Source: Phascolarctobacterium sp. | GTDB taxonomy: Bacteria; Bacillota; Negativicutes; Acidaminococcales; Acidaminococcaceae | DNA length: 64,000 nucleotides | Direction of reading: 5' to 3' | Assembly: GCA_030540395.1 (NCBI GenBank) | Contig: JAUNWI010000001.1 | Span: 1-64,000, forward strand | Shown: piece after piece, positions 1-12,391 of the stretch | Layout of the letters: each line of letters opens with the position of its first letter | How positions within the stretch are numbered: the stretch's first letter is position 1 | Notes under the pieces: model-generated | Told to the model about the DNA's origin: nothing | Databases searched by the model: none | The model's input: the letters and a program-made list of their open reading frames with translations, nothing else | Position numbers and translations under genes: made by a program

Positions 1-340
1 GGTGTTCTCTTTTATTTTTATTTCCCGTTTTTCCTACAAAAACTTTACGCTAGCGCATCGAGCCCTTTTGCTCGGCGTCCTGACGGACGCGCGTCACGTA
101 TTTACACCAGTGCGTAATTTGTATGCCACGTTTCTACATGTTAGCTTTAGGCTATTAGTTTCTAATCAAGGGGCTTCGCCCCGTGAGCCAACTGCCCCAT
201 TTCTATGCCGCAATTGTGTTATATACTATACAAACTGGGCTAAATGGGCACAAAAAAATAGACACCCGCCCTGAGCGAATGTCCTGCTAAATTTTTGTTA
301 AAATAATAAAAAAATATCGTGCATTTTGGAAAATTGGTGT
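1..340. other. Gene-free start of window
   Basis: I find no convincing gene here. An open frame runs through most of it, but it has no ribosome binding site and a composition unlike a protein. Short hairpins are visible: GCGTCC-TGAC-GGACGC near 75-90 and GGGGC-TTC-GCCCC near 170-184. They could belong to a terminator or repeat of a gene that lies before the window. Confidence 0.4.
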
Positions 341-346
341 TATAAT
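338..346 (+). promoter_or_regulatory. Extended -10 promoter of the sigma-like gene
   Basis: TG-T-TATAAT is a perfect extended -10 element; no good -35 lies at the usual distance. Transcription would begin near 353, inside a short inverted repeat (GTTGGT at 351, ACCAAC at 363). The ATG at 345 overlaps this -10, so the true translation start must lie further downstream. Confidence 0.55.
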
Positions 347-1049
347 GTACGTTGGTTGGGGCACCAACCAGTTACGGTATGGAATTCCGGCTTACAGTGA
401 CTTCGAAAACGCAGCTGCTTTGTGTTTTTCAAAAGGAGTCTTAAAAATTACGAAGCATAATCATAAGCATAATTATACCCATTTTTCGGCTACGAAGACC
501 AAAAACATGGTGATGGGTATAAAAAATGGTGATCCCTTCTATTGCCTCATGGCCTACCATGACTATAAGCCCCTCATCCTCAAGGAAGCCTACAGAAGCC
601 ATGTCATTGCCTGCTTGGGCGAGGATGCGGAAAACATCGCCTGGCAAGCCTTCTTTGAATTCATCCACGGCTATCATGGCAACCAATACCGCCTGCTGCC
701 GGGCCTCATCCAAAAGTATCTTTACTTTGAACTGCTCCACAAGGTCTATCCCAGGACCTTTACCTCCGTGCAGGATGAAGCCATTCTGGATGTAACCGAT
801 GATGCTGGCAAAAGACTGGTGGACCCTGCTTACACCGATACCGCTTTGGAAAACATCCATGCCAACGAACATGTCCACTACCTGCTCAGCTGTCTATCTG
901 CCAAGCAAAAGGATATTATTCTCGCTACTGTAATCGGTCACGAAACGCTGAATGCATATAGCAAAAGAAATGGCATCGCCTTTACCGTCGCCTTTTTAAG
1001 ACAAAAAGCCGCCCTTAAAAAGATGCATCATCTACTGCAAACTGAATAA
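345..1049 (+). CDS. Small sigma-70-like regulator (UviA/SigO-type)
   Basis: 234 codons are open from the ATG at 345, but that ATG lies inside a -10 box. A strong AGGAG at 434-438 is followed 8 bases later by an ATT codon (447), and the next ATGs are at 507 and 513, so the start is unsettled. From about residue 62 the protein has the helical pattern of a sigma region 2 (a DPF-to-AYHDY helix, then a DAENIAWQAFFEFI segment). Residues 180-230 look like a region 4 helix-turn-helix. Small sigma-like factors of this kind drive bacteriocin or lysis genes in clostridia (UviA) and act with RsoA in Bacillus (SigO). Here the gene precedes an amidase and a YvrJ peptide, which fits control of that cassette. 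The family call is from pattern only. Confidence 0.5.
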   Translation: MYVGWGTNQLRYGIPAYSDFENAAALCFSKGVLKITKHNHKHNYTHFSATKTKNMVMGIKNGDPFYCLMAYHDYKPLILKEAYRSHVIACLGEDAENIAWQAFFEFIHGYHGNQYRLLPGLIQKYLYFELLHKVYPRTFTSVQDEAILDVTDDAGKRLVDPAYTDTALENIHANEHVHYLLSCLSAKQKDIILATVIGHETLNAYSKRNGIAFTVAFLRQKAALKKMHHLLQTE

Positions 1050-1061
1050 GGCTCAATAAGC

Positions 1062-1104
1062 AAAACACACCATGGGCTCAACCAGCTCGTGGTGTGTTTT
1101 TTAG
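1062..1104 (+). terminator. Intrinsic terminator after the sigma-like gene
   Basis: Arms AAAACACACCA and TGGTGTGTTTT enclose a 17-base loop and are followed by more T. It begins 13 bases after the stop codon. Confidence 0.85.
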
Positions 1105-1440
1105 GTTAGTATTACTATATAACTGTATTACATGCTCTACACACGGAATATATTTACTAAAGTAAATATATAACGATTTTAAGGGCAAGAAGAAAGGCCA
1201 GAGAAAAATTTAATAAAAAGAGATGGAAAGAAGAATCACTTTAATAATGGCACAAAACCGCCTTTTACTTATCATAGGGCGCGAGAAAATTTTTAAAAAT
1301 TTTTTGGGAGAGTATGATAAATAAACCGCCCTTTTTTGCCATTATTATAGTGAGAGGGTTGAAATAATATCACACCTGTTTTGCCGCACCCCCTCTCCCC
1401 CAAAGCGCACACCGGTTACCGCAAATAAGGATCGCGACAG
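1105..1440. other. AT-rich gap before the amidase
   Basis: No gene is seen. An AT-rich dyad (AAAATTTTTAAAAATTTT) lies at about 1287-1305. Inverted copies TAATAATGGCA and TGCCATTATTA lie near 1238 and 1338, each next to a direct AAACCGCC repeat. This arrangement could hold the control region of the amidase cassette, but no consensus promoter is clear. Confidence 0.4.
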
Positions 1441-1453
1441 AAAGGAAACAACC

Positions 1454-2077
1454 ATGCAAGTAACAAATCCCCCCAGCATCACCTCCCAAGAACTGCTCCT
1501 TTTGGCCCAACAAGCCCAAGGACAAATTCACCACCTGTACCTGCACTGGACCGCTGGCAGATATCACCAATACTTTGATGACTATCACCTGAACGTGGAC
1601 GAGGACGGACAGGTCTATCGCACCTGCGACTCCTTGACCCAGCGCAAGGCTCACACCTACAAGCGCAACTCCGGCAGCGTGGGTATCGCCCTATGCTGCG
1701 GCCTGGACGCCAGCTGGAACGCCACCCTGCCTAGCTTCGGCACCACGCCGCCCACCGCCAAGCAGCTCCAATCCATGGCCTGGATTGTGGCCATCATCTG
1801 CTCGGCCCTGGGCCTGCCCATCAACAGCGACACCGTCATGACCCACGGCGAAGCTGCCTACCGTGATGGCTATGGCCCCGGCAGCGGCGACCCCGAAACC
1901 CGCTGGGACCTGTTTTGGGTGCGGGATGAACTGGGGCAGTTCCACCAGGGCGGGGTGTTCCTGCGGGAGCTTGCACGACAATTTAGCACTAGATTAGTGC
2001 CCACCAAGCGCAGCAGCGCACCACAAAATGCTCCTACTCAGGAGGCACCCCTGCAGGTGCCCCTCTTTATGGAGTAA
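1454..2077 (+). CDS. N-acetylmuramoyl-L-alanine amidase (Amidase_2)
   Basis: This 207-residue zinc amidase should cut the bond between N-acetylmuramic acid and L-alanine in peptidoglycan. The HWTAGRY motif gives His31 and the VMTHGEAAY motif gives His131, the usual zinc ligands; Asp146 in the GDPETRWD segment is the likely third. There is no signal peptide, so export would need a holin-like partner, and a YvrJ peptide is encoded three genes later. The start follows GAAAGGAAACA with good spacing. The last 30 residues are a low-complexity Pro/Gln/Ala tail. The size and lack of a signal resemble phage and bacteriocin-release endolysins. It is not a typical cell-separation amidase, because no SH3, LysM or SPOR domain is present. 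Confidence 0.85.
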   Translation: MQVTNPPSITSQELLLLAQQAQGQIHHLYLHWTAGRYHQYFDDYHLNVDEDGQVYRTCDSLTQRKAHTYKRNSGSVGIALCCGLDASWNATLPSFGTTPPTAKQLQSMAWIVAIICSALGLPINSDTVMTHGEAAYRDGYGPGSGDPETRWDLFWVRDELGQFHQGGVFLRELARQFSTRLVPTKRSSAPQNAPTQEAPLQVPLFME

Positions 2078-2101
2078 GGTAACAACGAAAGGAGAATGAA
2101 C

Positions 2102-2329
2102 ATGGCAGTAGAAAAATCTCTGGCAAAACGCTCTATGGCGATTAATGTAAAGGATGGGGTGAATGCTGATGGCACCGACAAACTCAAAGCCTGCAACTAC
2201 GGCAAAATCAAAGAAGCAGCTTCTGTGGAAGACATTTTTGCAGTTGGCACTGCAATGGGTGGCCTCATGGCTAAGGAAGTAGTGGAAATCACCGTCACCG
2301 AAAAATCCACCCTGACTCAAGGGATGTAA
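2102..2329 (+). CDS. DUF1659 family small protein
   Basis: This 75-residue protein has the DUF1659 pattern: a short N-terminal strand, a central NYGKIKEAASVEDIFAVG segment and a C-terminal VVEITVTE strand. The start at 2102 is preferred over the ATG at 2096 because GGAG at 2091 sits 7 bases before it. DUF1659 genes commonly lie beside DUF2922 and YvrJ genes in Firmicutes, and both follow here. The family has no established function. The gene's 3' end and the ~30 bases after it are repeated, diverged, at 5157-5200, where they close a truncated ATPase gene. Confidence 0.75.
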   Translation: MAVEKSLAKRSMAINVKDGVNADGTDKLKACNYGKIKEAASVEDIFAVGTAMGGLMAKEVVEITVTEKSTLTQGM

Positions 2330-2353
2330 TTAGTGATAAGTGAATTTAGGAAA

Positions 2354-2515
2354 GTGCCTCCCCCACCGGGGGAGGTGGCAGTCGCGCAGTTCACTTCGCT
2401 TGGACTGCTTTTGCAATGCGACTGACGGAGAGGGGCAACGCTAAACAATTAAGTTAACGTTGGTCCCCTCTCAGTCAGCAAAGCTGACAGCTCCCCCCGT
2501 GGGGGAGCCTCTCCT
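2354..2515. repeat. Complete palindromic element, non-coding form
   Basis: The left half starts with a CTCCCCC/GGGGGAG hairpin and runs through a GGCAGTCGCGC...GCGACTGACGGAGAGGGG segment. About 30 unique bases separate it from the right half, CCCCTCTCAGTCAG... to GACAGCTCCCCCC/GGGGGAGCC. The halves are inverted copies of each other. The element sits between the DUF1659 and DUF2922 genes. Related copies occur at 5.2, 18.8-19.1, 23-24.4, 34.9, 36.4 and 46.4-46.6 kb. Confidence 0.85.
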
Positions 2516-2561
2516 ACTACCGTCTGATTTTGAGTATTAATAACCAAAGGAGGAATGCCTA

Positions 2562-2768
2562 ATGGAATTACAACTGGTCTTTAAATGCACCAATGGCAAA
2601 AAGCGCATTATCATCATCAACAACCCTCGCGAGGACGTAACCTTGGAGGAAGCTACCACCGTGATGCAGCTCATCATCGAGAAGAACATCTTTGATTCTT
2701 CCTACGGTGATTTGACTGAAATCGTGGAGGCTCGCATGCACACCTGCGAGTACAATGTGTTGCTGTAA
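2562..2768 (+). CDS. DUF2922 family small protein
   Basis: This 68-residue protein has the DUF2922 layout: an N-terminal LQLVFKCTNGKKRIIIINNPRED strand pair, a helix (VTLEEATTVMQLIIEKNIF) and a final AR...CEYNVLL strand. AAAGGAGGAATGCCTA gives a strong ribosome binding site. Its partner DUF1659 gene lies upstream, separated by a palindromic element, and a YvrJ gene follows 11 bases after the stop codon. Both small DUF proteins are widespread in Firmicutes and uncharacterised. The tight link to YvrJ suggests one operon. Confidence 0.8.
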   Translation: MELQLVFKCTNGKKRIIIINNPREDVTLEEATTVMQLIIEKNIFDSSYGDLTEIVEARMHTCEYNVLL

Positions 2769-2779
2769 GGTAAAATTCC

Positions 2780-2929
2780 ATGGACCTAGACCAAATGCTG
2801 ACGGCGGCTGCCAACTATGGCTTTCCCATGCTCGTATCCTGCTATTTGCTGGTGCGCATGGAAAACAAAATCGACAAGCTTTGCGCCAACATTGACGCTC
2901 TAACCCGAGTCATCGCAGCAGCCAAATAA
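2780..2929 (+). CDS. YvrJ family holin-like peptide
   Basis: This 49-residue peptide has one hydrophobic stretch (residues 14-25, GFPMLVSCYLLV), then a charged amphipathic helix, the pattern of the YvrJ family and of BhlA/UviB holin-like peptides. TAAGGTAAAA upstream is an acceptable ribosome binding site. In Bacillus subtilis yvrJ lies beside the sigO-rsoA sigma genes; here a sigma-like gene and an amidase lie in the same stretch. A membrane role, perhaps helping the amidase out of the cell, is inference. A second copy, cut off in its second half, starts at 5293. Confidence 0.75.
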   Translation: MDLDQMLTAAANYGFPMLVSCYLLVRMENKIDKLCANIDALTRVIAAAK

Positions 2930-2934
2930 ACACC

Positions 2935-2970
2935 AAAAGCCCCTGTAGCCAGCGCTGCAGGGGCTTTTGC
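2935..2970 (+). terminator. Terminator of the YvrJ cassette
   Basis: AAAAGCCCCTGTAGC pairs with GCTGCAGGGGCTTTT across a 4-base loop, 6 bases after the yvrJ stop. It can work in both directions. Confidence 0.85.
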
Positions 2971-3009
2971 ACATGCATTATTCTATTGATTTACTCCATA
3001 AAAATCAAA

Positions 3010-3276
3010 TTCCTTCCTTTATATATGCGCATTGAACAGAAGGGGTAAAATTCCAAGTTCCTTCCTTTATATATGTCATACTCACCTTCACCTACATGTA
3101 CAGAAACGAGCAATAACCCAACTTTCTTCCTTTATATATACGCGCTATACTCTCCTTCATCTAAATGTACAGAAACAAGCATATTATTCAACTTCCTTCC
3201 TTTATATATATTACATTCACCGTTCTGTTCATGTACAAAATGAGCAACAATCCAACTTTCTTCCTTTATATATACA
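3010..3276. repeat. Tandem ~65-bp repeats with CTTCCTTTATATATA core
   Basis: The 15-base core recurs five times, near 3013, 3061, 3126, 3196 and 3260, with spacings of 48, 65, 70 and 64 bases. Three units also share an ATGTACAGAAACGAGCA-like segment. On the minus strand the core reads TATATATAAAGGAAG. The same string occurs in the plus direction at about 3859 and 6964. The array fills the gap between the YvrJ terminator and the nuclease gene. Confidence 0.8.
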
Positions 3277-3323
3277 CGTCTCACGCCTCTTCCCCATTCC
3301 CTATTTTCAGAAAGGAGTACACC

Positions 3324-3827
3324 ATGCACCACAAACCATCCATATTAATAACCATCACCCTTCTCCTCCTTGTCCTCATCTGCGCCACCATCTGCCACAG
3401 CTCCGGCCCCACCTACTCCGGCGAAGTGGTCTCCATCATCGATGGTGACACCATCCACGTGAGGGAATATGCCACCAAAGAGCTACACAAGGTTCGTCTT
3501 GCCGGTATCGATGCTCCGGAGCTGGACCAGCCCTACGGCCCCAACGCCAAAGCAGCTCCGGAAGCCATCTTGAAATACCACACAGTGCAGGTCCAAGTGC
3601 AGGCCAACGATAAATACCAAAGAGAAATCGCTACCGTCTCATCCAAGGGCGCGGACATCAGCGCCTTCATGCTGCGCTACGGCTTCGCCTGGCATTATAA
3701 GCATTTTAATAGCTCCACCCTTTATGCCCAACTAGAACACCTCGCCCGCAGTGAACACTTGGGCCTTTGGGAGTATGAGGGTAATGTTCCTCCTTGGGTT
3801 TGGAGGAAGAGGAAGATAACAAGGTAA
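3324..3827 (+). CDS. Secreted thermonuclease (SNase-like)
   Basis: This 167-residue staphylococcal-nuclease-like enzyme cuts DNA or RNA with calcium. Residues 5-25 form a strong hydrophobic signal or anchor. The catalytic pattern is complete: DGDTI at 40-44, RLAGIDAPE with Arg58 and Glu66, Arg100 in DKYQRE, and a closing GLWE. AAAGGAG lies 6 bases before ATG 3324; longer open frames upstream run through tandem repeats and are not credible. The DKYQR in place of the usual DKYGR is a small deviation. The last coding bases and the ~45 bases after the stop match the 3' end of the ATPase gene at 6928-6978, so a recombination joint lies at or near this stop codon. Confidence 0.9.
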   Translation: MHHKPSILITITLLLLVLICATICHSSGPTYSGEVVSIIDGDTIHVREYATKELHKVRLAGIDAPELDQPYGPNAKAAPEAILKYHTVQVQVQANDKYQREIATVSSKGADISAFMLRYGFAWHYKHFNSSTLYAQLEHLARSEHLGLWEYEGNVPPWVWRKRKITR

Positions 3828-3872
3828 TACCAATTGCTTAAATCTAATTCAATAGTGTATATATAAAGGAGA
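3822..3872 (+). repeat. Remnant of an ATPase gene 3' end
   Basis: This ~50-bp block (AAGGTAATACCAATTGCTTA through GTGTATATATAAAGGA) is nearly identical to 6928-6978. There it encodes the last eight residues and downstream region of the DUF4143 ATPase. Here it overlaps the nuclease stop codon and is not in an ATPase frame. Confidence 0.8.
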
Positions 3873-3962
3873 TTTTTTTATTAACCAAAAACTAAAGGCA
3901 GCTATATCAAAATACTGTTATAAATGGTATAATATAGATGAATGAAAGAAAGGAGTTTCATC

Positions 3963-5177
3963 ATGGGCAAGTACCTCAATATTGGTTTGGATGGTTTTGC
4001 AAGCCTAAGGAATGGAAATTACATAGATAAATCCATGTTAATTTCTTATATCAACGACAATCTCAATACCCCGGACAACCTGATATGCGTAAGTCGTCCA
4101 CGTCGCTTCGGTAAGTCTTCCGCTATCAAGATGCTTGCCGCATATTTTGACTGCACAGTCAATTCCCATAGTCTCTTTGATGACCTCCTTATCAGCAAAA
4201 CACAAGCTTATAGTAAATTTATTAATAGCTATAATGTAATCTGTCTTGACATTACCTGGTTCATAACAATCTCAAACGACATTAATAATGTAATTGATGT
4301 TCTCCAAAAAGAAGTAACAGATGAGCTTGCCAAAGCTTTTCCAAGTGTAAAACGAAGCTTTTCTCTTCCTGAAATGATTGCCGATATAGCAGAACAAACC
4401 GGGACAAAATTTATTATCCTAATCGATGAATGGGATGCTCTATTTAGAGAGGCTAAAAACAACATAGAATTACAAAAATCATATATTAAAATGCTGAGAG
4501 GACTCTTTAAAAATACCCATACAGACAAAAGTATCGCAGCCGCTTATATGACAGGAATACTTCCTATCAAAAAATACGGCACTGAATCTGCCTTAAATAA
4601 CTTCGACGAATTCACTATGATCAATCCAGCTCCCCTTAGTCAATACATAGGATTCACAGAGGAAGAAGTCAAAAGCCTTTGCGAAAAGCATTCTATGGAT
4701 TTTTCTTCTATGAAAAACTGGTATGATGGCTATGTTTTTGGGAACCTTCACATCTACAATCCTAAATCTGTTCTGGATGCTATTAAGAGGCAATCTTTTA
4801 GTAGCTATTGGACACAAACAGAAACATACGAAAGTCTCAAGCATTATATCAATATGAACTTTGACGGTCTTAAGCTAGCAGTTCTATTTATGCTTGAAGG
4901 CGGTCGATGCAATATTATAACAAGAAAATTCCAAAACGATATAATAAATATCAACAGCAAAGACGATGTGCTGACCCTCCTCGTTCATTTAGGATATCTG
5001 GCGTTCGATAACAACACCGATGAAGTATATATCCCCAACAAAGAAATAGAAGCTGAATTCCGCAATGTACTGGAAGAAAGTGATTGGCATATTGTAGCTG
5101 GTACTGTCAATAGTTTTGCGCAATTTTTTTCTTGTTCAATAGACATGGCAGTTCAAGCCTTGCCTCAAGGGATGTAA
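3963..5177 (+). CDS. AAA-ATPase-like protein, C-terminally truncated
   Basis: This 404-residue protein has an N-terminal P-loop ATPase: the Walker A-like SRPRRFGKS at 44-52 and the Walker B region LIDEWDAL at 153-160. It fits the AAA-ATPase_like family (PF09820), whose members usually run past 500 residues and end in a PD-(D/E)XK nuclease-like domain. That domain is missing. The protein ends in LPQGM followed by a stretch matching the 3' end of the DUF1659 gene at 2311-2355. The start at 3963 follows AAAGGAG by 8 bases, and an extended -10 (TGGTATAAT) lies at 3925-3933. The joint looks like a deletion or recombination between cassettes. The product may be inactive. Confidence 0.7.
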   Translation: MGKYLNIGLDGFASLRNGNYIDKSMLISYINDNLNTPDNLICVSRPRRFGKSSAIKMLAAYFDCTVNSHSLFDDLLISKTQAYSKFINSYNVICLDITWFITISNDINNVIDVLQKEVTDELAKAFPSVKRSFSLPEMIADIAEQTGTKFIILIDEWDALFREAKNNIELQKSYIKMLRGLFKNTHTDKSIAAAYMTGILPIKKYGTESALNNFDEFTMINPAPLSQYIGFTEEEVKSLCEKHSMDFSSMKNWYDGYVFGNLHIYNPKSVLDAIKRQSFSSYWTQTETYESLKHYINMNFDGLKLAVLFMLEGGRCNIITRKFQNDIININSKDDVLTLLVHLGYLAFDNNTDEVYIPNKEIEAEFRNVLEESDWHIVAGTVNSFAQFFSCSIDMAVQALPQGM

Positions 5178-5388
5178 CCACTGATAAGTAGATTTAGGCT
5201 TAAAGCTAACCTTTGTCCTCCCTCTTTGAGGGAGGTGGATGCGAGCTTGCGAGCAGACGGAGGGAGTTTTCTACCAAGGAAGGATGAACAATATGTACCT
5301 CGCTCAAATACTGACTGCGGCTGCCAAGTATGGTTTCCCCATTATCGTGTCCTGCTACCTGCTGGTGCGCGAGGAAGAAGTAAATAGC
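5157..5388 (+). pseudogene. Remains of a second DUF1659-YvrJ cassette
   Basis: Bases 5157-5200 match the last codons and downstream flank of the DUF1659 gene. Bases 5216-5265 are half of a palindromic element. From ATG 5293 the reading MYLAQILTAAAKYGF and VSCYLLVREEE copies the first half of the YvrJ peptide. The match stops after about 28 residues, and the frame then runs through a terminator hairpin and further non-homologous sequence. No DUF2922 gene remains. The cassette was therefore once present twice, and this copy has collapsed. Confidence 0.75.
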
Positions 5389-5390
5389 AA

Positions 5391-5437
5391 AAATCCGACT
5401 AATCTAACATTCAACAATAGATTAGTCGGATTTTTTT
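5391..5437 (+). terminator. Strong intrinsic terminator
   Basis: AAATCCGACTAATCTA and TAGATTAGTCGGATTT form a perfect 16-bp stem with an 11-base loop and a T run. It lies just after the broken YvrJ copy. Confidence 0.9.
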
Positions 5438-5660
5438 ATGAATACTCCTATATTACAACAGAATCCTGCTCTCAGTTTCTTCATTTTTTGAAAGTCCCCA
5501 CGTTATATCACTCTTTGAATTTCTTGAAAAGGGCCTATTTTACAGGGTTTCCAGCCACACTCATCTTTTCAAGCCATTCTCCACTTTCAAAAATTAAAAT
5601 TTTTTCATTTTTCGAAAGTGGTCAAGCGGTCATCTATCTAGGCCATTTTTAAACAAAAAC
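5438..5660. other. Non-coding gap with one hairpin
   Basis: No supported gene. One long hairpin is visible near 5580-5622 (CCACTTTC ... GAAAGTGG with A/T-rich inner arms). The open frame across this stretch continues from the broken YvrJ copy and shows no protein-like pattern. Confidence 0.5.
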
Positions 5661-5663
5661 ATC

Positions 5664-5692
5664 TTGCAATAACTGTAAAAATCGACTATTAT
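5664..5692 (+). promoter_or_regulatory. Promoter of the DUF4143 ATPase
   Basis: TTGCAA and TATTAT are separated by exactly 17 bases, about 40 bases before the start codon. Arms TCGACT and AGTCGA flank the -10 and could form an operator or hairpin. Confidence 0.6.
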
Positions 5693-5731
5693 ATTATTAG
5701 ATATTAAATCAGTCGAAAAAGAGGAGTGCTT

Positions 5732-6955
5732 ATGTACGTAAATCGTCACTTAGAGACAGTTTTACAAAAGGCTAGTAAGATGTTTGGCGCTGTTTTAGTA
5801 ACCGGACCGCGTCAGGTAGGAAAGACAACGCTGTTGCGCAATTTTTCTAGAGGTGCTGCTTACGTAACCTTGGATGATCCCATGCAGCTTCACGCAGCCA
5901 TCGAAGAACCATCTACCTTTTTCAAGGATAATGATCCCCCTGTATTTGTGGATGAAATCCAATATGCACCTAACTTATTTCCTTACATCAAAATGCAGGT
6001 GGATGAAAAGCAGGGCAAGGGCTTGTTTTATCTGTCAGGCTCCCAGCAATTCAAGCTCATGAAAAATGTGGGAGAATCCTTAGCGGGTCGCTTGGGCGTA
6101 TTGAATCTTTTGGGCTTTTCCATGCGTGAATACCAAAAAAGCAGCTTCAACGAAGCCTTTCTGCCTACGCAAGAATATTTTGCGCGTCGCAAGGCTGAAC
6201 TCAAGCCTTTAAGCTATGACGAGCTTTGGAAGCTTATTCATCGGGGCAGCATGCCGGACTTGTTGCTCAACGAGGATTATGATTGGCAGCTTTTTTATGC
6301 TTCTTATGTCAAAACATATATCGAACGTGATGTGCGCGAGCTGACACAGGTTGGCGATGAAGTGAAATTTATCAAGTTCATGATTGCGACAGCTAGCGTC
6401 ACCGGACAGCTGCTTAATTTAACTTCTCTTGCTAGAGATGTTGGCATCAGTGTTACGACTGCGGAAAGATGGCTCTCGATTTTGGTAACCAGCAATATTG
6501 TCTATTTGCTCAAGCCCTATGCCAATAATGTTTTAAAGCGTGCAGTCAAAACGCCCAAGCTCTACTTCTTGGACACTGGCTTAGCCGCCTATCTGACAAA
6601 ATGGACTACAGCTGCTGTTTTGAAAAATGGTGCTATGGCGGGTGCCTTCTTCGAAACCTTTGTCATAGCAGAAATCATCAAGAGCTATTATAACCAAGGT
6701 ATTGCCGAGCCCCCATTGTATTTTTATCGAGACAAGGAGCAGCAGGAAATCGATTTGCTCATCGAGGATAATGGTGTTTTATATCCCTTGGAGATGAAAA
6801 AGCATGCGGACCCCAAAGTCTCCGATACCAAAGCTTTTGCTGTATTGGATAGCATCCCGGGAATACAGCGCGGTTGCGGTGGCGTGATTTGCACCTATGA
6901 TAAGCTAGTCACGCTGAAGGATAATGACAAGGTAATACCAATTGCTTACATCTAA
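5732..6955 (+). CDS. AAA_14/DUF4143 family ATPase
   Basis: This 407-residue P-loop protein has Walker A GPRQVGKTT at 25-33 and Walker B VFVDEIQ at 71-77, with an LSGSQQ sensor-like segment, as in the AAA_14 family. The second half matches the DUF4143 domain. Near residues 340-360, EIDLLIED...LYPLEMKK has the spacing of a PD-(D/E)XK nuclease site (Asp, then Glu-x-Lys). GAGGAG lies 6 bases before ATG 5732. Members are common in gut anaerobes and are often annotated only as ATPases; a DNA-related role is likely but unproven. Its 3' end is duplicated after the nuclease gene at 3822-3872. Confidence 0.8.
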   Translation: MYVNRHLETVLQKASKMFGAVLVTGPRQVGKTTLLRNFSRGAAYVTLDDPMQLHAAIEEPSTFFKDNDPPVFVDEIQYAPNLFPYIKMQVDEKQGKGLFYLSGSQQFKLMKNVGESLAGRLGVLNLLGFSMREYQKSSFNEAFLPTQEYFARRKAELKPLSYDELWKLIHRGSMPDLLLNEDYDWQLFYASYVKTYIERDVRELTQVGDEVKFIKFMIATASVTGQLLNLTSLARDVGISVTTAERWLSILVTSNIVYLLKPYANNVLKRAVKTPKLYFLDTGLAAYLTKWTTAAVLKNGAMAGAFFETFVIAEIIKSYYNQGIAEPPLYFYRDKEQQEIDLLIEDNGVLYPLEMKKHADPKVSDTKAFAVLDSIPGIQRGCGGVICTYDKLVTLKDNDKVIPIAYI

Positions 6956-6980
6956 TTCAATAGTGTATATATAAAGGAAG

Positions 6981-7030
6981 AAAATCGCTCTAAGGGTCGT
7001 GAAGTTCACTATCCCCTAGAGCGATTTTTT
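6981..7030. terminator. Bidirectional terminator, CCTAGAG family
   Basis: AAAATCGCTCTAAGGG pairs with CCCCTAGAGCGATTTT around an inner GTGAA/TTCAC stem, with T runs on both sides. It can end the ATPase transcript and the minus-strand genes. Related hairpins lie at 10497-10556 and 12853-12921. Confidence 0.85.
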
Positions 7031-7063
7031 ATGAACACAAATCGGTCACTTGTATAGCTTTCT

Positions 7064-7279
7064 CTACTCCATATATTTTACATTATTTCTGTAAAGTTTA
7101 GTAACTTTAAAAGCCTCTATATCATCCATATTCGTTTTCACAAGTTCATCTTTGGAAAAATGTGCATAATTTGTAGGCCTGTGCAAATCAATGATATGAA
7201 TTCCATCACCTTTTCTAAAAAAAGCATACCCCTGTACAATTACTTCTGCTTCATCTGCCAATTTTTCGATATCAACCAT
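7064..7279 (-). CDS. Small hypothetical protein
   Basis: This 71-residue protein is not recognised. It is acidic at the N-terminus (VDIEKLADEAEVIVQG), has a GIHIIDLHRPTNYAHFSKDELV centre and ends with a short basic stretch. A GGAGG (rc of 7286-7290) sits 6 bases before the start, so it is probably translated. It lies 58 bases downstream of the tandem paralogue operon, in the same direction, and may be the last gene of that operon. It has no transmembrane segment. Confidence 0.6.
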   Translation of the reverse strand: MVDIEKLADEAEVIVQGYAFFRKGDGIHIIDLHRPTNYAHFSKDELVKTNMDDIEAFKVTKLYRNNVKYME

Positions 7280-7337
7280 TATTTACCTCCAACATATGAA
7301 TATACACGGAATGTTTAATATTTTATTAATCATACTC

Positions 7338-8837
7338 TCAAATCCCAAAAACTTCTTTTCGAAGAGCCCTATTGGTCATAAGAGCAATATATCTCCGCAC
7401 GTTTTGTCTGCCGGAATTGAATTTTAGTTTATTACTGACGGCCCACCATATGTCGCACACTCTATGCCCAATTTGTGCATTCTCTCCCTCATCCTTATGC
7501 CAACAATTTGGCCCAAAAAGCACCTTGGAAGCGTTGATATTTTCAGGATTATGCAGTATTTTTTCGAAGACCATCCACAAAGCCACAAATTTTGGATTAG
7601 TAATATTCTCAAAGATATCATTCATAAGCTCTTCGAATAAATAAATATTGAAATAATGCTCTTCTGCAAAATCAAGCATCTCTTTGATTCTTTTCAAGGG
7701 TGCTTTCATATCAACGCCCTTAGCAAGCACTGCCTTATAATCCTCTTTTAAATTGGCCAACCATTGCTGCATCTCCTCAGAAAAAGTTAATGGTTTTTCC
7801 TTGGTCCAATATAAAACCAAGTCATCAATAGGGATATTAAAATACTCTTCCGTTGTCGTATAATTCACTGCATTATATGACTCCTCATTCCAAATCCGTC
7901 TTCTGGCCACATCATCCACCATTTCCCAAAGCTTCCAAAAATTAGCCTTATAAATATCTGCTATTATTTTGATTGTAGTTGCAGGACAGTCAAAACAAAC
8001 AATATTCACCCAAAACTTTTTAATTTCTTCATCTTGTTTATTCTTAAAGAAATCAGCTAGATTATCAATACTATAAAACTCACGCAGCATAGATACAAGC
8101 TGTTGAATCTGCTTTTCAGGCTTTAAGTTGCTTTTAGCATGGAAATCTTTGATGTAATCATAGATGTGGGTATAATAGCCGTATAGCAGTTTCCTAAATC
8201 TATAGTCCTCATCACTTTCCTTCGAAGCTTTCTCTTCACTTAAATCCTTACGCAATTCTTTTAATCCATACTTAACAGCTATGATATCCAGGTATCCTCG
8301 GTAGCCAACATCCCTACACTTATACATACGCAAATCCCTTGTGGTTAAATTCTCTTCTCTAAAGGTACCACGTATCTTCAAGTATACTTCCCAAGGGTCC
8401 TTTCCTCTTGCTGTAAATTTCTCATCAAATACATAATTAATCCAGTTTGTTGGATGTTCACTTGGTAACCAGTTTCCATCATGCTCGATAGCTGTCGGCT
8501 CATCAGTATATAAACCTTCCAAAGTGTAAGCGGCTAACATTGCCATAGCATAATCCCCTGTATCTACCTTTCCGCTCCAAACTCTGTTATTGTCCATGTT
8601 GAAGCCTGCTTCTTCATGAAAATCATCTTCAAAATAGTTATAATTAAACGAGATGCGTTGTTCATAGGGCATGGCCCTCTTGAGAACTAAATACTCTTTT
8701 CCAAAAAGAATATAATAATCCCAATCAAACATCCCACCGCGATAAAACAACTCACCAATTCTGTGCAAAAACTCTTCCTGTTTTGTCACCGGAATATTAG
8801 CATTGCTACTTTTGATCAAACTACAAAATGAACCCAT
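7338..8837 (-). CDS. Unrecognised ~500-residue protein, paralogue 2
   Basis: I do not recognise this 499-residue protein. It is roughly half identical to the protein encoded just upstream (8899-10389) over its full length. The best conserved parts are the start (FCxLxK), RIGELFYRGGMxDWD at 26-40, AAYTLEGLYT near 102-111 and the end (RVCDxWW, then FNxGRxNVRRYIALM). No signal, membrane segment or nucleotide-binding loop is visible; helical, Trp/Tyr-rich stretches dominate. AAAGGTGG precedes the ATG. Its position between an ATPase and a PIN/ImmA operon suggests an accessory, perhaps defence or toxin-related, gene. That is context only. Confidence 0.7.
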   Translation of the reverse strand: MGSFCSLIKSSNANIPVTKQEEFLHRIGELFYRGGMFDWDYYILFGKEYLVLKRAMPYEQRISFNYNYFEDDFHEEAGFNMDNNRVWSGKVDTGDYAMAMLAAYTLEGLYTDEPTAIEHDGNWLPSEHPTNWINYVFDEKFTARGKDPWEVYLKIRGTFREENLTTRDLRMYKCRDVGYRGYLDIIAVKYGLKELRKDLSEEKASKESDEDYRFRKLLYGYYTHIYDYIKDFHAKSNLKPEKQIQQLVSMLREFYSIDNLADFFKNKQDEEIKKFWVNIVCFDCPATTIKIIADIYKANFWKLWEMVDDVARRRIWNEESYNAVNYTTTEEYFNIPIDDLVLYWTKEKPLTFSEEMQQWLANLKEDYKAVLAKGVDMKAPLKRIKEMLDFAEEHYFNIYLFEELMNDIFENITNPKFVALWMVFEKILHNPENINASKVLFGPNCWHKDEGENAQIGHRVCDIWWAVSNKLKFNSGRQNVRRYIALMTNRALRKEVFGI

Positions 8838-8898
8838 ATGATGCCCACCTTTCTTTATGCATCTAAAAGGCTACGCATGAAAAGCTTGCCTGCTAAAA

Positions 8899-10389
8899 TC
8901 AAATCCTAAAAATCTCGTTTCGAAGGTCCTTATTAGCCATCAAGGCAATATATCTCCGCACGTTTTTTCTGCCTAGGTTAAACTTTAACTCACGTCCCAC
9001 TGACCACCATGTATCACAAACCCTGCGTCCATTTGCAACATAATCCTTATCATCCTTAGCCCAATAATCCGGCTCGAATAATCCTTTTGATGCATTTATA
9101 TTATCGGCATTGTGCAAGATTTTCTCAAACACCAACCACAACGCAAAAAATTTTGGGTCGCTTATCCTCTCAAATGTCTCATAGATAATCTCTATAAAAT
9201 AATAAATATTGGCATAGTGTTCCTCAGCAAAATCAATGATATTCATTATACGTTTTAAGGGTGAATTCATATCCACACCTTGGGTAAGTAAAGCATCATA
9301 TTCTTTCTTCAAGTTATTTAACCATGCTTGCATTTCATCAGAGAATGCAATTGGCTTATCCTTCTTCCAATACCATAACAAGTCATCAGCCGTAACATCA
9401 AAAAACTCCTCTGTAGAAACAAGGGGAACCTGCTTCAAATCCATATTCCAAAGATACCTTTTAGCAACATCAGCTATTCTTTGCCAAAGCTGCCAAAAAT
9501 CTTGTTCATATACATCTGCAATGATTTTAATGACAGATGCAGGAGAATCGTAGAGTAATATGTCTTTCTCAAGACGAGCAGTTTCATCTTCAGTTAATGA
9601 CTCAAGGATTTCCGGTAGGCCACCATGCGTGTAAAAACTACGTATCATTGTAAATAGCTCATCAATTTGTTCATCCAAAGATAATTTGCTATTTGCTTTG
9701 AACGAAGATATATATTTATGTATATTGACATAGATATCGTTCACTTGTTTTCTTAAAGAATATTCGACATCACTTTCGTATTCATCTTGAGCTTTAGTTA
9801 ATTCTATAGATAGCTCTTTGAGGCCATCCACAACAGCCATTATTTCAAGATACCCTATAAACCCCATTAAAGAGTGTCTACGAAAACGTAAATAATCTTT
9901 CTCTATCCTTTTATTATCCTTGTGAAGCATCAGACAGATTTCCCAAGGGTCGCTTTTGTTAGCAAGATATTTTTCACCAAATAGATAATTAATCCAACCA
10001 GTATAATACCAACTACTTAACCATTCGTTATCACGCTTTATGGTAAACGGTCCAGGAGTGTATAATCCCTCTAAAGTATAAGCAGCAAGCATTGTTTGGG
10101 AAAATTTTCCATAACCCACCTTATCACTATATACTTCAAACCTATCTGTGTTGAAGCCTGCATATGGTTGAGCAGCATCTTCAAAATAATTATAACTATA
10201 ATAGATGCCATTTTTTTCGTGTATTGGCTGCTTCAGGACTTTAAGCTTTTTGTCAAAAAGCGTATAAAGATCCCAATCCATCATCCCACCACGATAAAAC
10301 AGCTCACCAATTCTGGCGAAAAACTCCTCCCTTTTTTCTACTGATATAGAAGAACCTTCAGCTTTAAGTAACCCACAAAAAGTACCCAT
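8899..10389 (-). CDS. Unrecognised ~500-residue protein, paralogue 1
   Basis: This 496-residue protein is the first of two tandem paralogues, 61 bases apart. It shares with its partner the IGELFYRGGM block, an NYFED block near 74, a DFAEEHYxNIY block in the last third and the NVRRYIALM ending. The conserved aromatic and acidic blocks are spread through the whole length, so both are likely full-length, and the duplication is old. AAAGGGGATTTTTTA precedes the ATG. Transcription should come from the promoter at 10437-10465, whose spacer is a 16-bp palindrome. The function is unknown. Confidence 0.7.
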   Translation of the reverse strand: MGTFCGLLKAEGSSISVEKREEFFARIGELFYRGGMMDWDLYTLFDKKLKVLKQPIHEKNGIYYSYNYFEDAAQPYAGFNTDRFEVYSDKVGYGKFSQTMLAAYTLEGLYTPGPFTIKRDNEWLSSWYYTGWINYLFGEKYLANKSDPWEICLMLHKDNKRIEKDYLRFRRHSLMGFIGYLEIMAVVDGLKELSIELTKAQDEYESDVEYSLRKQVNDIYVNIHKYISSFKANSKLSLDEQIDELFTMIRSFYTHGGLPEILESLTEDETARLEKDILLYDSPASVIKIIADVYEQDFWQLWQRIADVAKRYLWNMDLKQVPLVSTEEFFDVTADDLLWYWKKDKPIAFSDEMQAWLNNLKKEYDALLTQGVDMNSPLKRIMNIIDFAEEHYANIYYFIEIIYETFERISDPKFFALWLVFEKILHNADNINASKGLFEPDYWAKDDKDYVANGRRVCDTWWSVGRELKFNLGRKNVRRYIALMANKDLRNEIFRI

Positions 10390-10436
10390 TAAAAAATCCC
10401 CTTTCTTTTTGGATAATAGACCAGTATCTCAAGGAG

Positions 10437-10465
10437 ATTATACTACGTAATATTACGTATGTAAA
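10437..10465 (-). promoter_or_regulatory. Promoter with palindromic operator in its spacer
   Basis: On the minus strand TTTACA and TATAAT are 17 bases apart. Of those 17, 16 form the perfect palindrome TACGTAATATTACGTA (10444-10459). A dimeric repressor bound there would block RNA polymerase directly. The HTH protein encoded at 12401-12763 is a candidate binder, by proximity only. The start codon of the first paralogue is 48 bases downstream of the -10. Confidence 0.75.
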
Positions 10466-10496
10466 GATGTTGCTCTCGTTATTTCCAAATAAAAAA

Positions 10497-10556
10497 ACCG
10501 CCCTAGGAGTGTTCACTTTAATGTGCTTTCACTTCCCTCTAGGGCTATCGTTTTTA
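10497..10556. terminator. Bidirectional terminator, CCTAGAG family
   Basis: GCCCTAG (10500) pairs with CTAGGGC (10539-10545), with inner GTTCAC/TTTCACTT segments and T runs on both sides. It separates the PIN operon from the promoter of the tandem paralogues. Confidence 0.8.
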
Positions 10557-10688
10557 TTGTTTATCTGGTTTAATGTTATAACGCTTGCATAAATGCTCTT
10601 CTACCTCTTCAGGCGTGAGCCAACCTTTCTCTTCTCCTGATTTCTTACCCTTATCTAATTCATGTAAAAGAACTTTTATCGAATTCAT
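10554..10688 (-). CDS. 44-residue antitoxin-like peptide
   Basis: This short gene encodes MNSIKVLLHELDKGKKSGEE, then a KGWLTPEEVEEHL segment and a basic end. The GEEKGWLTPEEVEEHL part resembles the C-terminal, toxin-wrapping tail of several type II antitoxins, where a short acidic helix follows a Gly-Trp pair. It lies 82 bases after the PIN-like gene, in the same direction, and ends at a terminator. The ribosome binding site is weak (AAGGA about 13 bases away). It could be a separate small antitoxin or the remaining tail of one. Confidence 0.5.
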   Translation of the reverse strand: MNSIKVLLHELDKGKKSGEEKGWLTPEEVEEHLCKRYNIKPDKQ

Positions 10689-10770
10689 ATTGTTGACACA
10701 TCCTTGCTATTTAGATGATACAAACTCATTCATCACTACTTTTTGAAGAAGACTAGAGTGATATTGGTTT

Positions 10771-11613
10771 TCAAAATATTATCTGTACAGCAGCATCCTT
10801 CAAGAGTTCCAAGAATTGTTCGTTATCAACCTTCTGTGTGACCAATACTGTGGAGCTATCTTTACGCCTTTTAGTATATGTTACAGTCCTTTCATCAGTA
10901 CGCATTTCATTTACTTTATCTAGTGTAATCTGACCATGCATATATAATTGCTGTAAGAGCCAATCATTGGATTTATAGCCTACTTGTACGTGACTCCTAT
11001 CATGAAAAGCCTTTTTTAGTTGCTTATGAGCATTTCCTTGATAAAAAAATGTATCTCTATCCTGGGTGTATATCGTAATCATTTCTGCGCTTGGATAATA
11101 CCATGAAAATATTTCAGCCAAAATGGTCAAGGATATTTCACCGGCATTTTTCCTTTTGACACGTCCACTTGCAGTACACACATCATTCATAGGCCAATCA
11201 TGATACATTTTCACAATCCATTCTTCATATGCATCCATATCAAGTGGGTCCGGTTTCTCAACGTGCCGACGCAGATAGCTCTTTAATGCACCTAAAGTTG
11301 CTGACGCAGCATAAACTATAGAGTACAGTCGTCCTTCCTCCTCATGCACCAGCTGAGCATAGTTCTCCTCTGCAATAGTATAAATAGGCAAACCATCTTT
11401 GAATAGGTTTTCAATATATGTACTGCGATATGGGGAATCTTTGATTTCCATCCCGACCCAATTAGGGATTAAAATAAGCTCATATTCCCCTAACAGTTCA
11501 GCTGTTGGGACTCCACATCGTTCCATTTTTTCCATAAAAGAAATGGCTGAATTGTCAATTAAGGCTATTCTGCTCTCACTATTATAATGCTTATATTCCG
11601 GTATATTAAGCAT
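10771..11613 (-). CDS. PIN-like domain nuclease, probable toxin
   Basis: This 280-residue protein has the spaced acidic residues of a PIN-fold ribonuclease: Asp20 (IALIDNS), Glu56 (VGMEI), Glu159 (AGEISL) and Asp185/Asp187 (IYTQDRDTF). PIN proteins of toxin-antitoxin systems cut RNA. At 280 residues it is about twice the size of VapC; the last 90 residues form an extra domain. It overlaps the ImmA/IrrE gene by 8 bases, so the two are translationally coupled. A predicted peptidase coupled to a nuclease suggests that the peptidase releases a block on transcription or on the nuclease. Confidence 0.7.
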   Translation of the reverse strand: MLNIPEYKHYNSESRIALIDNSAISFMEKMERCGVPTAELLGEYELILIPNWVGMEIKDSPYRSTYIENLFKDGLPIYTIAEENYAQLVHEEEGRLYSIVYAASATLGALKSYLRRHVEKPDPLDMDAYEEWIVKMYHDWPMNDVCTASGRVKRKNAGEISLTILAEIFSWYYPSAEMITIYTQDRDTFFYQGNAHKQLKKAFHDRSHVQVGYKSNDWLLQQLYMHGQITLDKVNEMRTDERTVTYTKRRKDSSTVLVTQKVDNEQFLELLKDAAVQIIF

Positions 11614-12391
11614 CTTGCACCTTCGTTAACAGATTGAGTTCTTTGATAACATTACGCAAAAATTGTGCATTCTCTTGGTTATAGTGCAGCTCTGGGTCCT
11701 GCTTTATTTTTGCATTTATCTTTGTCTGTAAAGCACTAACGTTGATTACATATGATGGCTTTACTAAACTGTCATCCAAGCCTAAGTCACGAAATATTTT
11801 GGGCAAATCTGTAAATACCATATCAAAATGTTGCTTTATTTGTTCCATTAAGCTTACATTTCCACTTTGTTCAGCACTTTCATATAGGGCAATCATTACT
11901 GCCTTGAAGGGAGCCTCAAAAGCATCCATACAATGGAATATTTTGGCCAAAAAATCCATTTCCGGTAATTCCAAATAATAATGAAGTAAATTGCCAAGCA
12001 GCATTTGTGAAGCAAAATACTCCGCTTTGCGTTCTTCGATAGAGGTTTCTGATTTTATTACATGGTTAAAGGAAACATCATCATAAAACAAATGATAAAT
12101 TTCATGCCACGCGGTGAAGTACTGATTGGCCCTGGGCAGAGCAGTATTCAATACAGGTATTCTTTTCCCATCCTTCACAAAAATCGCTCCGCTCCAATAA
12201 TGATTATCTATAGGCAATTGAACCAACCCATGATGCTTCAAGATTTGCATGGCCAATTGACTAGAAGAATTAATCTGCATCCTATTACAATTGGTGCGAA
12301 TCATGAGCGTTTTTATTCTTGTCTCTTCACGTATTTCCTTGTTCTTTAAGATAATCTCATCCAGATTGGCTACTCCAATTCTTTCACTCAT
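11606..12391 (-). CDS. ImmA/IrrE family metallopeptidase
   Basis: This 261-residue protein carries a gluzincin motif HEIYH with His96, Glu97 and His100. Glu120 or Glu124 in the following EERKAEYFASQMLL helix would be the third zinc ligand, a classic ImmA/IrrE layout. Such proteases cleave a partner HTH repressor on a signal. An HTH protein is encoded 9 bases upstream, and the PIN-like nuclease overlaps downstream, so repressor, protease and effector share one operon. The N-terminal 90 residues hold a segment ending in a GAIFVKDGKRIPVLN strand typical of the family. Confidence 0.8.
   Translation of the reverse strand: MSERIGVANLDEIILKNKEIREETRIKTLMIRTNCNRMQINSSSQLAMQILKHHGLVQLPIDNHYWSGAIFVKDGKRIPVLNTALPRANQYFTAWHEIYHLFYDDVSFNHVIKSETSIEERKAEYFASQMLLGNLLHYYLELPEMDFLAKIFHCMDAFEAPFKAVMIALYESAEQSGNVSLMEQIKQHFDMVFTDLPKIFRDLGLDDSLVKPSYVINVSALQTKINAKIKQDPELHYNQENAQFLRNVIKELNLLTKVQDA

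Follow-up and report, generated by a model that had tools for sequence, protein, structure and literature searches.

We analysed a 64,000-nucleotide stretch of DNA from Phascolarctobacterium sp. (assembly GCA_030540395.1, 1.89 Mb; contig JAUNWI010000001.1, positions 1 to 64,000, hereafter the window), which carries a compact five-gene cassette at its left end. The first base of the contig is window position 1, and the cassette lies at the contig's very start, between 345 and 2929 on the plus strand. An earlier, sequence-only reading had listed its genes in order, and all five were confirmed: a small sigma-like factor (345–1049, hereafter S), an Amidase_2-type N-acetylmuramoyl-L-alanine amidase without signal peptide (1454–2077; Pfam, 2.8e-13), a DUF1659 protein (2102–2329; 3.1e-18), a DUF2922 protein (2562–2768; 2.9e-20), and the 49-aa peptide YvrJ (2780–2929; 1.7e-14). 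The last four genes were placed by Pfam and S was assigned through sigma-factor homologues. The same reading had noted the lack of phage genes nearby; no capsid, tail or integrase gene was met among the proteins scanned in window positions 1–12,391, the rest of the window not having been scanned for phage genes.

Taken alone, the protein encoded at 345–1049 has no Pfam match above cut-off and gives weak sigma-70 matches (NCBIfam, E 0.023). Since its homologues are clear sigma factors, we place S in the sigma-70 family. In our alignment A3 of S homologues, Sigma70_r4_2 is matched by 32 and Sigma70_r2 by 17 of 39 rows (one of which, L317, is a ComK protein included wrongly), and two distant members of the family pass the NCBIfam model sigma70-ECF (TIGR02937). 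The description of the first gene as a small sigma-like factor is thus borne out, with regions 2 and 4 in one protein. Its start codon is uncertain and probably lies downstream of 345: the ATG at this position overlaps a TATAAT (340–345), and inspection by eye shows AAAGGAG at 432–438 preceding an in-frame ATT at 447.

In the amidase family, H31 is conserved in 65 of 65 aligned rows, H131, D138 and D152 in 63, and E133 in at least 63. The conservation of H31, H131, D138 and D152 is as expected of a zinc amidase, and together with E133 these are putative catalytic residues. A crude scan of the family revealed no hydrophobic N-terminal stretch, in line with the missing signal peptide. The window amidase matches an endolysin PHROG (5e-32) and 97 phage records, mostly from cyanophages, with 45% identity at best; relatives 100% and 79% identical come from uncultured Phascolarctobacterium. 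No relative was found in viral contigs, and a PDB sequence search with the amidase returned nothing meaningful. YvrJ consists of a single short hydrophobic helix followed by R-x-E and an amphipathic tail, with invariant F15, L23, L24 and R26, and one YvrJ matches a holin PHROG at 7e-4.

AlphaFold2 predicted a beta-beta-alpha-beta arrangement for both the DUF1659 (pLDDT 93.5) and the DUF2922 protein (pLDDT 79), and the profiles of the two families match each other weakly (22%). The top VIA match of both models is phi29 p6 (8pw2); the two alignments have a Z of 4.7 with an rmsd of 3.2 over 59 residues and a Z of 4.5 with an rmsd of 2.7 over 51. Foldseek with DUF1659 ranked p6 second by E-value (probability 0.87). 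The p6 resemblance is treated as a lead, because Z values below 8 are common among unrelated folds. According to PMC10899789, p6 wraps DNA and is an activator of replication. Searches of PDB sequences, run with the DUF2922 protein and with profiles of the DUFs, yielded no meaningful match. By their models, DUF1659 and DUF2922 are predicted to have similar small folds, and they may bind DNA.

We next asked how firmly the five genes are held together across the whole order (63 genomes of Phascolarctobacterium-like Acidaminococcales). DUF2922 is present in 51 of them and Amidase_2 in 50; a relative of the fast-evolving S was found in 32 at E 0.01 by a single-sequence search. Our own profiles, in a search repeated with more sequence, yielded 90 DUF2922 loci in the 51 genomes, 48 of which are flanked by 3.5 kb or more on either side. 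In this full-flank set, DUF1659 lies within 1.5 kb of DUF2922 at every locus, YvrJ is found at 42 loci, the amidase within 3 kb at 38, S within 6 kb at 36, and all five genes within 6 kb at 28. When all 90 loci were counted, contig ends included, the corresponding numbers were 83, 71, 60 and 57, with all five genes at 44. The amidase and S are thus conserved with the trio of DUF1659, DUF2922 and YvrJ, as the idea of a cassette implies. The arrangement is flexible: S is colinear in the genus of the window and divergent in genera g17 and g2, and the amidase may follow YvrJ or stand between DUF2922 and YvrJ. Several genomes have two to five cassette copies, with shared stretches about 74–99% identical.

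A shared promoter, TTTTT...TTATATAAGTGAAAGGG, lies ahead of the first cassette gene. The matrix trained on 58 amidase upstream regions reads GTTG..TTTTTG followed by TTATATAAGTGAAAGGG about 15–20 bases on. A scan of 3,954,640 positions (180 loci, both strands) with it found 58 sites that score more than 18 bits; 43 precede the amidase, where it had been trained, 10 precede DUF1659, where it had not, and 5 lie elsewhere. For a held-out ranking each genus was left out of training in turn; 17 of the 58 upstream regions, whose best site was weak, cut or inside a called gene, were dropped beforehand. In 24 of the 41 loci tested, no other position of the locus outranked the cassette site, which was among the top ten in 40; in the window genus it came first at all four loci. 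In the window, the site CCTTTTTTGCC...ATTATTATAGTGAGAGGG (1322–1358, plus strand) upstream of the amidase was found by both the matrix and a promoter model search; it outranks all others among 23,918 positions when genus g1 is left out of training, and the model search gives it an E of 0.0057 in its own genome. In genus g6 the parts are separated: the trio (L117–L120) is on other contigs than the amidase (L180, L371), several S genes are found in further places, and trio and amidase each carry the promoter. A common motif thus precedes the cassettes, and S would be the factor that recognises it.

The promoter sequence model was applied to 20 genomes, and in each of them the 150 best candidates were scored. 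Cassette sites of three genomes (G004, G005 and G006) that the matrix finds were missed in this way, so that the numbers of regulon sites given here are minimum values. A P4-family primase (TIGR01613, 8e-59) of genus g17 is preceded by an array of 2–6 S-type sites in G048, G050, G052 and G055, and by a single site in G043. Tandem arrays before the primase were seen at L356 7817–8133, L357 4173–4505, L358 8210–9521 and L359 6139–6414; perhaps they hold one site per sigma paralogue. Primase relatives at least 58% identical occur in nine g17 genomes, and none as close was found in the genome of the window. Fragments of a D5_N/primase N-terminus also lie directly downstream of YvrJ in two cassettes (L149 743–1075 and L153 530–868).

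Nif11-like leader peptides follow other S-type sites in G048 and G055; of these, the L155 peptide of G048 alone passes the Pfam cut-off, and the window has no such peptides. Further sites stand before orphan amidases (L364, L371), a DNA alkylation repair gene (L375) and an MmeI-type enzyme (L373), and some have no obvious gene downstream. At two loci (L348 in G026, L350 in G024) S-type promoters lie about 330–415 bp from autotransporter-like genes and divergent to them. The sequence-only reading had suggested that the cassette could be self-contained. The conserved neighbourhood and the shared promoter agree with this, but the term is too narrow for the genus in which a primase and leader peptides share that promoter.

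The trio reaches far beyond the order. DUF2922 occurs in 278 of the 380 class genomes and in 194 of the 398 genomes sampled from the phylum. At 60 loci picked by hand, and hence non-randomly, from the top DUF2922 matches (20 from the class and 40 from the phylum), DUF1659 adjoins DUF2922 without exception, and YvrJ and S lie within 3 kb at 42 and 18 loci, respectively. Within the same distance we found ComK-like genes at 12 loci, RecD2 at 10, ComF at 5 and SSB at 3; within 6 kb, ComK-like genes were at 20 loci and ComF at 16. By chance, we estimate, a given single-copy gene would lie no farther than 6 kb from a fixed point in about 0.5% of 2.5-Mb genomes. The trio thus occurs phylum-wide beside sigma-like or ComK-like regulators, a wider frame than that of the earlier reading.

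The amidase is exchanged as well. Amidase_3 takes the place of Amidase_2 at L080 (S-Amidase_3-DUF1659-DUF2922-YvrJ) and adjoins the trio at L064 and on a Peribacillus asahii plasmid, where ComK (1.4e-5), DUF1659, DUF2922, YvrJ, Amidase_3 and an integrase follow in this order; both amidase types match endolysin PHROGs. Regulators of two kinds (sigma or ComK-like) and amidases of two unrelated families thus replace one another while their slot is kept; we regard this exchange as the strongest sign that the module includes both functions. In one genome of the window's own order (G061), a ComK-like gene and an S gene are adjacent, some 6 kb away from the trio (L079 342–1654).

We consider a dedicated sigma regulon for release of the holin/endolysin type, built like UviA-UviB-amidase, to be the best explanation of the cassette, with a probability of roughly 0.55. 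S would act as a dedicated alternative sigma factor that recognises TTTTT...TTATATAAGTGAAAGGG and switches on the amidase-DUF1659-DUF2922-YvrJ operon. YvrJ, as a single-helix holin-like peptide, would open or thin the membrane, and the signal-less amidase could thereby reach and cut peptidoglycan. The outcome would be lysis of a fraction of the cells or the exit of a folded cargo; by sequence, lysis and non-lytic export cannot be told apart. DUF1659 and DUF2922, small and related-looking, might assist the cargo or act on DNA. Taken together, the cassette probably allows cells to let out material of some kind, perhaps DNA or peptides, on command. The earlier suggestion of a lysis or release device remains plausible in its endolysin-type amidase, its missing export signal, its holin-like peptide and its UviA-UviB-amidase precedent.

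Several observations weigh against this explanation. YvrJ has no firm tie to the BhlA/UviB family: its profile and that of BhlA match weakly (hhalign, 5.8%), and we do not regard their homology as established. YvrJ is missing within 6 kb at six of the 48 full-flank loci, all from genus g9, which keep most of the other genes (five miss YvrJ alone and one also the amidase), and it must therefore be replaceable or dispensable in that genus. The cassette amidase is absent within 3 kb at 10 of the 48 loci, and at the class and phylum loci an amidase lies within 3 kb at only 12 of 60 (Amidase_2 at 5, Amidase_3 at 7). Finally, the window shows no obvious cargo gene.

A possible, though doubtful, alternative is a competence-linked DNA programme, in which sigma or ComK-like regulators would drive DNA-processing proteins together with a controlled lysis that supplies or handles DNA. 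The ComK-like, ComF, RecD2 and SSB neighbours speak for it, as does a profile comparison in which the ComK-like family (21 members) aligns almost end to end with six true ComK proteins (hhalign 70%, E 4e-5), although only 3 of the 21 reach Pfam ComK at E 0.5. A phylum search with Pfam ComK gave matches about 1.1 kb from DUF2922 in G456, G575, G668 and G525 and others nearby in G384 and G697, those of G525 and G697 being below cut-off; the Peribacillus plasmid joins ComK directly to the trio and Amidase_3. In competent Bacillus subtilis cells, rsoA is 8.7-fold and sigO 3.9-fold higher (PMC7317962), and SigO-RsoA activates transcription of yvrJ, as stated in the accessible text of PMC8103513. 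The SigO-RsoA data and the ComK-like, ComF and RecD2 neighbours suggest a DNA-uptake or DNA-exchange state. The primase arrays of g17 and the first rank of p6 for both DUF models fit such a state, but the Z values of p6 are of the common kind noted above, and the genome of the window has neither a ComK match nor such a primase. Moreover, no ComK box pair is evident before DUF1659 in three Bacilli loci, and the adjacency of RecD2 and ComF may be plain gene order persisting for other reasons.

A broader and unlikely version, which we offer as speculation, is an ancient Bacillota-wide programme in which such regulators, DUF1659 and DUF2922 as p6-like DNA-wrapping proteins, and a holin-endolysin pair, in some lineages joined by primase, SSB, RecD2 or ComF, would let a subset of cells copy, wrap and release DNA or peptides to kin, as a capsid-less gene-transfer or fratricide state.

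We think it quite improbable that the cassette is a relic of prophage late genes, with a sigma- or antiterminator-like regulator beside an endolysin and a holin, which the host has kept or phages still carry. DUF1659, DUF2922 and the amidase each have PHROG families, and one S homologue matches Phage_antitermQ (7.8e-6); yet two DUF2922 queries and one DUF1659 query had no match among 50,697 phage records, the window DUF1659 has no relative in viral contigs, and the presence of DUF2922 in 278 class genomes is too broad for stray phage genes. DUF2922 does match 7 plasmid records, and a phage or plasmid origin was considered and rejected.

Equally poor odds attach to a role in cell-wall remodelling or sporulation without release. 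Acidaminococcaceae are not known to sporulate, and the amidase lacks an export signal. In favour of this role, DUF1659 clusters with sporulation domains by phylogenetic profile in the accessible part of PMC2955703. It is very unlikely that YvrJ acts as a small membrane toxin in a stability module of the toxin-antitoxin kind: the accessible text of PMC13269093 annotates a plasmid yvrJ-yoqJ as a type II toxin-antitoxin pair, an annotation given there without a test, and we saw no conserved antitoxin partner, the fixed partners being the amidase and the two DUF proteins.

Some features of the window concern this copy of the cassette only. A palindrome-rich repeat element (2331–2561, plus strand, about 217 bp net) separates DUF1659 from DUF2922. 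It is missing from the near-identical locus L072 and has 20 matches within its own genome, seven of them at least 86 bases long, the query itself counted; it may weaken DUF2922-YvrJ expression in this genome. A decayed second copy (3942–5400) lies at and just past the end of an AAA-ATPase-like gene (PF09820). Its plus-strand remnants comprise a DUF1659 end (5158–5198, 83% identical to 2310–2350) and a YvrJ start (5293–5370, 82% identical to 2780–2857), between which DUF2922 has been lost. Directly downstream of the intact cassette is an SNase-type nuclease gene (3324–3827) whose product has a hydrophobic N-terminal stretch and which was not seen as a conserved neighbour. Further on (7338–10389), two adjacent paralogue-like proteins of 499 and 496 aa have no Pfam match at 0.01.

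In the literature searched, outside which most subscription papers fall, DUF2922 is unmentioned and the regulon undescribed, yvrJ is named in five papers, and for DUF1659 we found only the phylogenetic-profile study, in its accessible part. A promoter, a candidate regulator and fixed partners can now be assigned to both families, which therefore become part of a testable regulon. The cassette is found across a large phylum and has so far been unexplained. If release is its function, many gut and environmental Bacillota possess a release or lysis switch of their own under sigma control; if the link to ComK, RecD2 and ComF is functional, it bears on DNA exchange among anaerobic Firmicutes.

The cassette resembles several known systems in part. 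phi29 p6 is the solved structure nearest to both DUF models (VIA-align) and has the same beta-beta-alpha-beta core, but no sequence similarity was found and Z is below 5. With the ComK regulon the cassette shares ComK-like genes, which are neighbours of the trio in many Clostridia and, in Bacilli, on one plasmid; it differs in that the genome of the window has no ComK and that the clostridial proteins are remote homologues of ComK. SigO-RsoA of B. subtilis is likewise an alternative sigma that controls a YvrJ protein, but it splits regions 4 and 2 over two proteins, whereas S homologues carry both in one, and DUF2922 has no match in the B. subtilis control genome. A further likeness is to UviA-UviB-amidase-Bcn5 of Clostridium perfringens, a precedent for holin-dependent release under a sigma factor (accessible part of PMC9527704). 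The cassette differs in adding DUF1659 and DUF2922, in having no bacteriocin in the window (Nif11-like peptides stand behind S-type promoters in two other genomes, G048 and G055), in the weak YvrJ-BhlA match, set beside the one YvrJ that matches a holin PHROG, and perhaps in its promoter, TTATATAAGTG. Both systems combine a sigma factor, here of the sigma-70 family, with a single-helix membrane peptide and an N-acetylmuramoyl-L-alanine amidase, and the sigma gene often adjoins the operon, as S does at 36 of the 48 full-flank loci.

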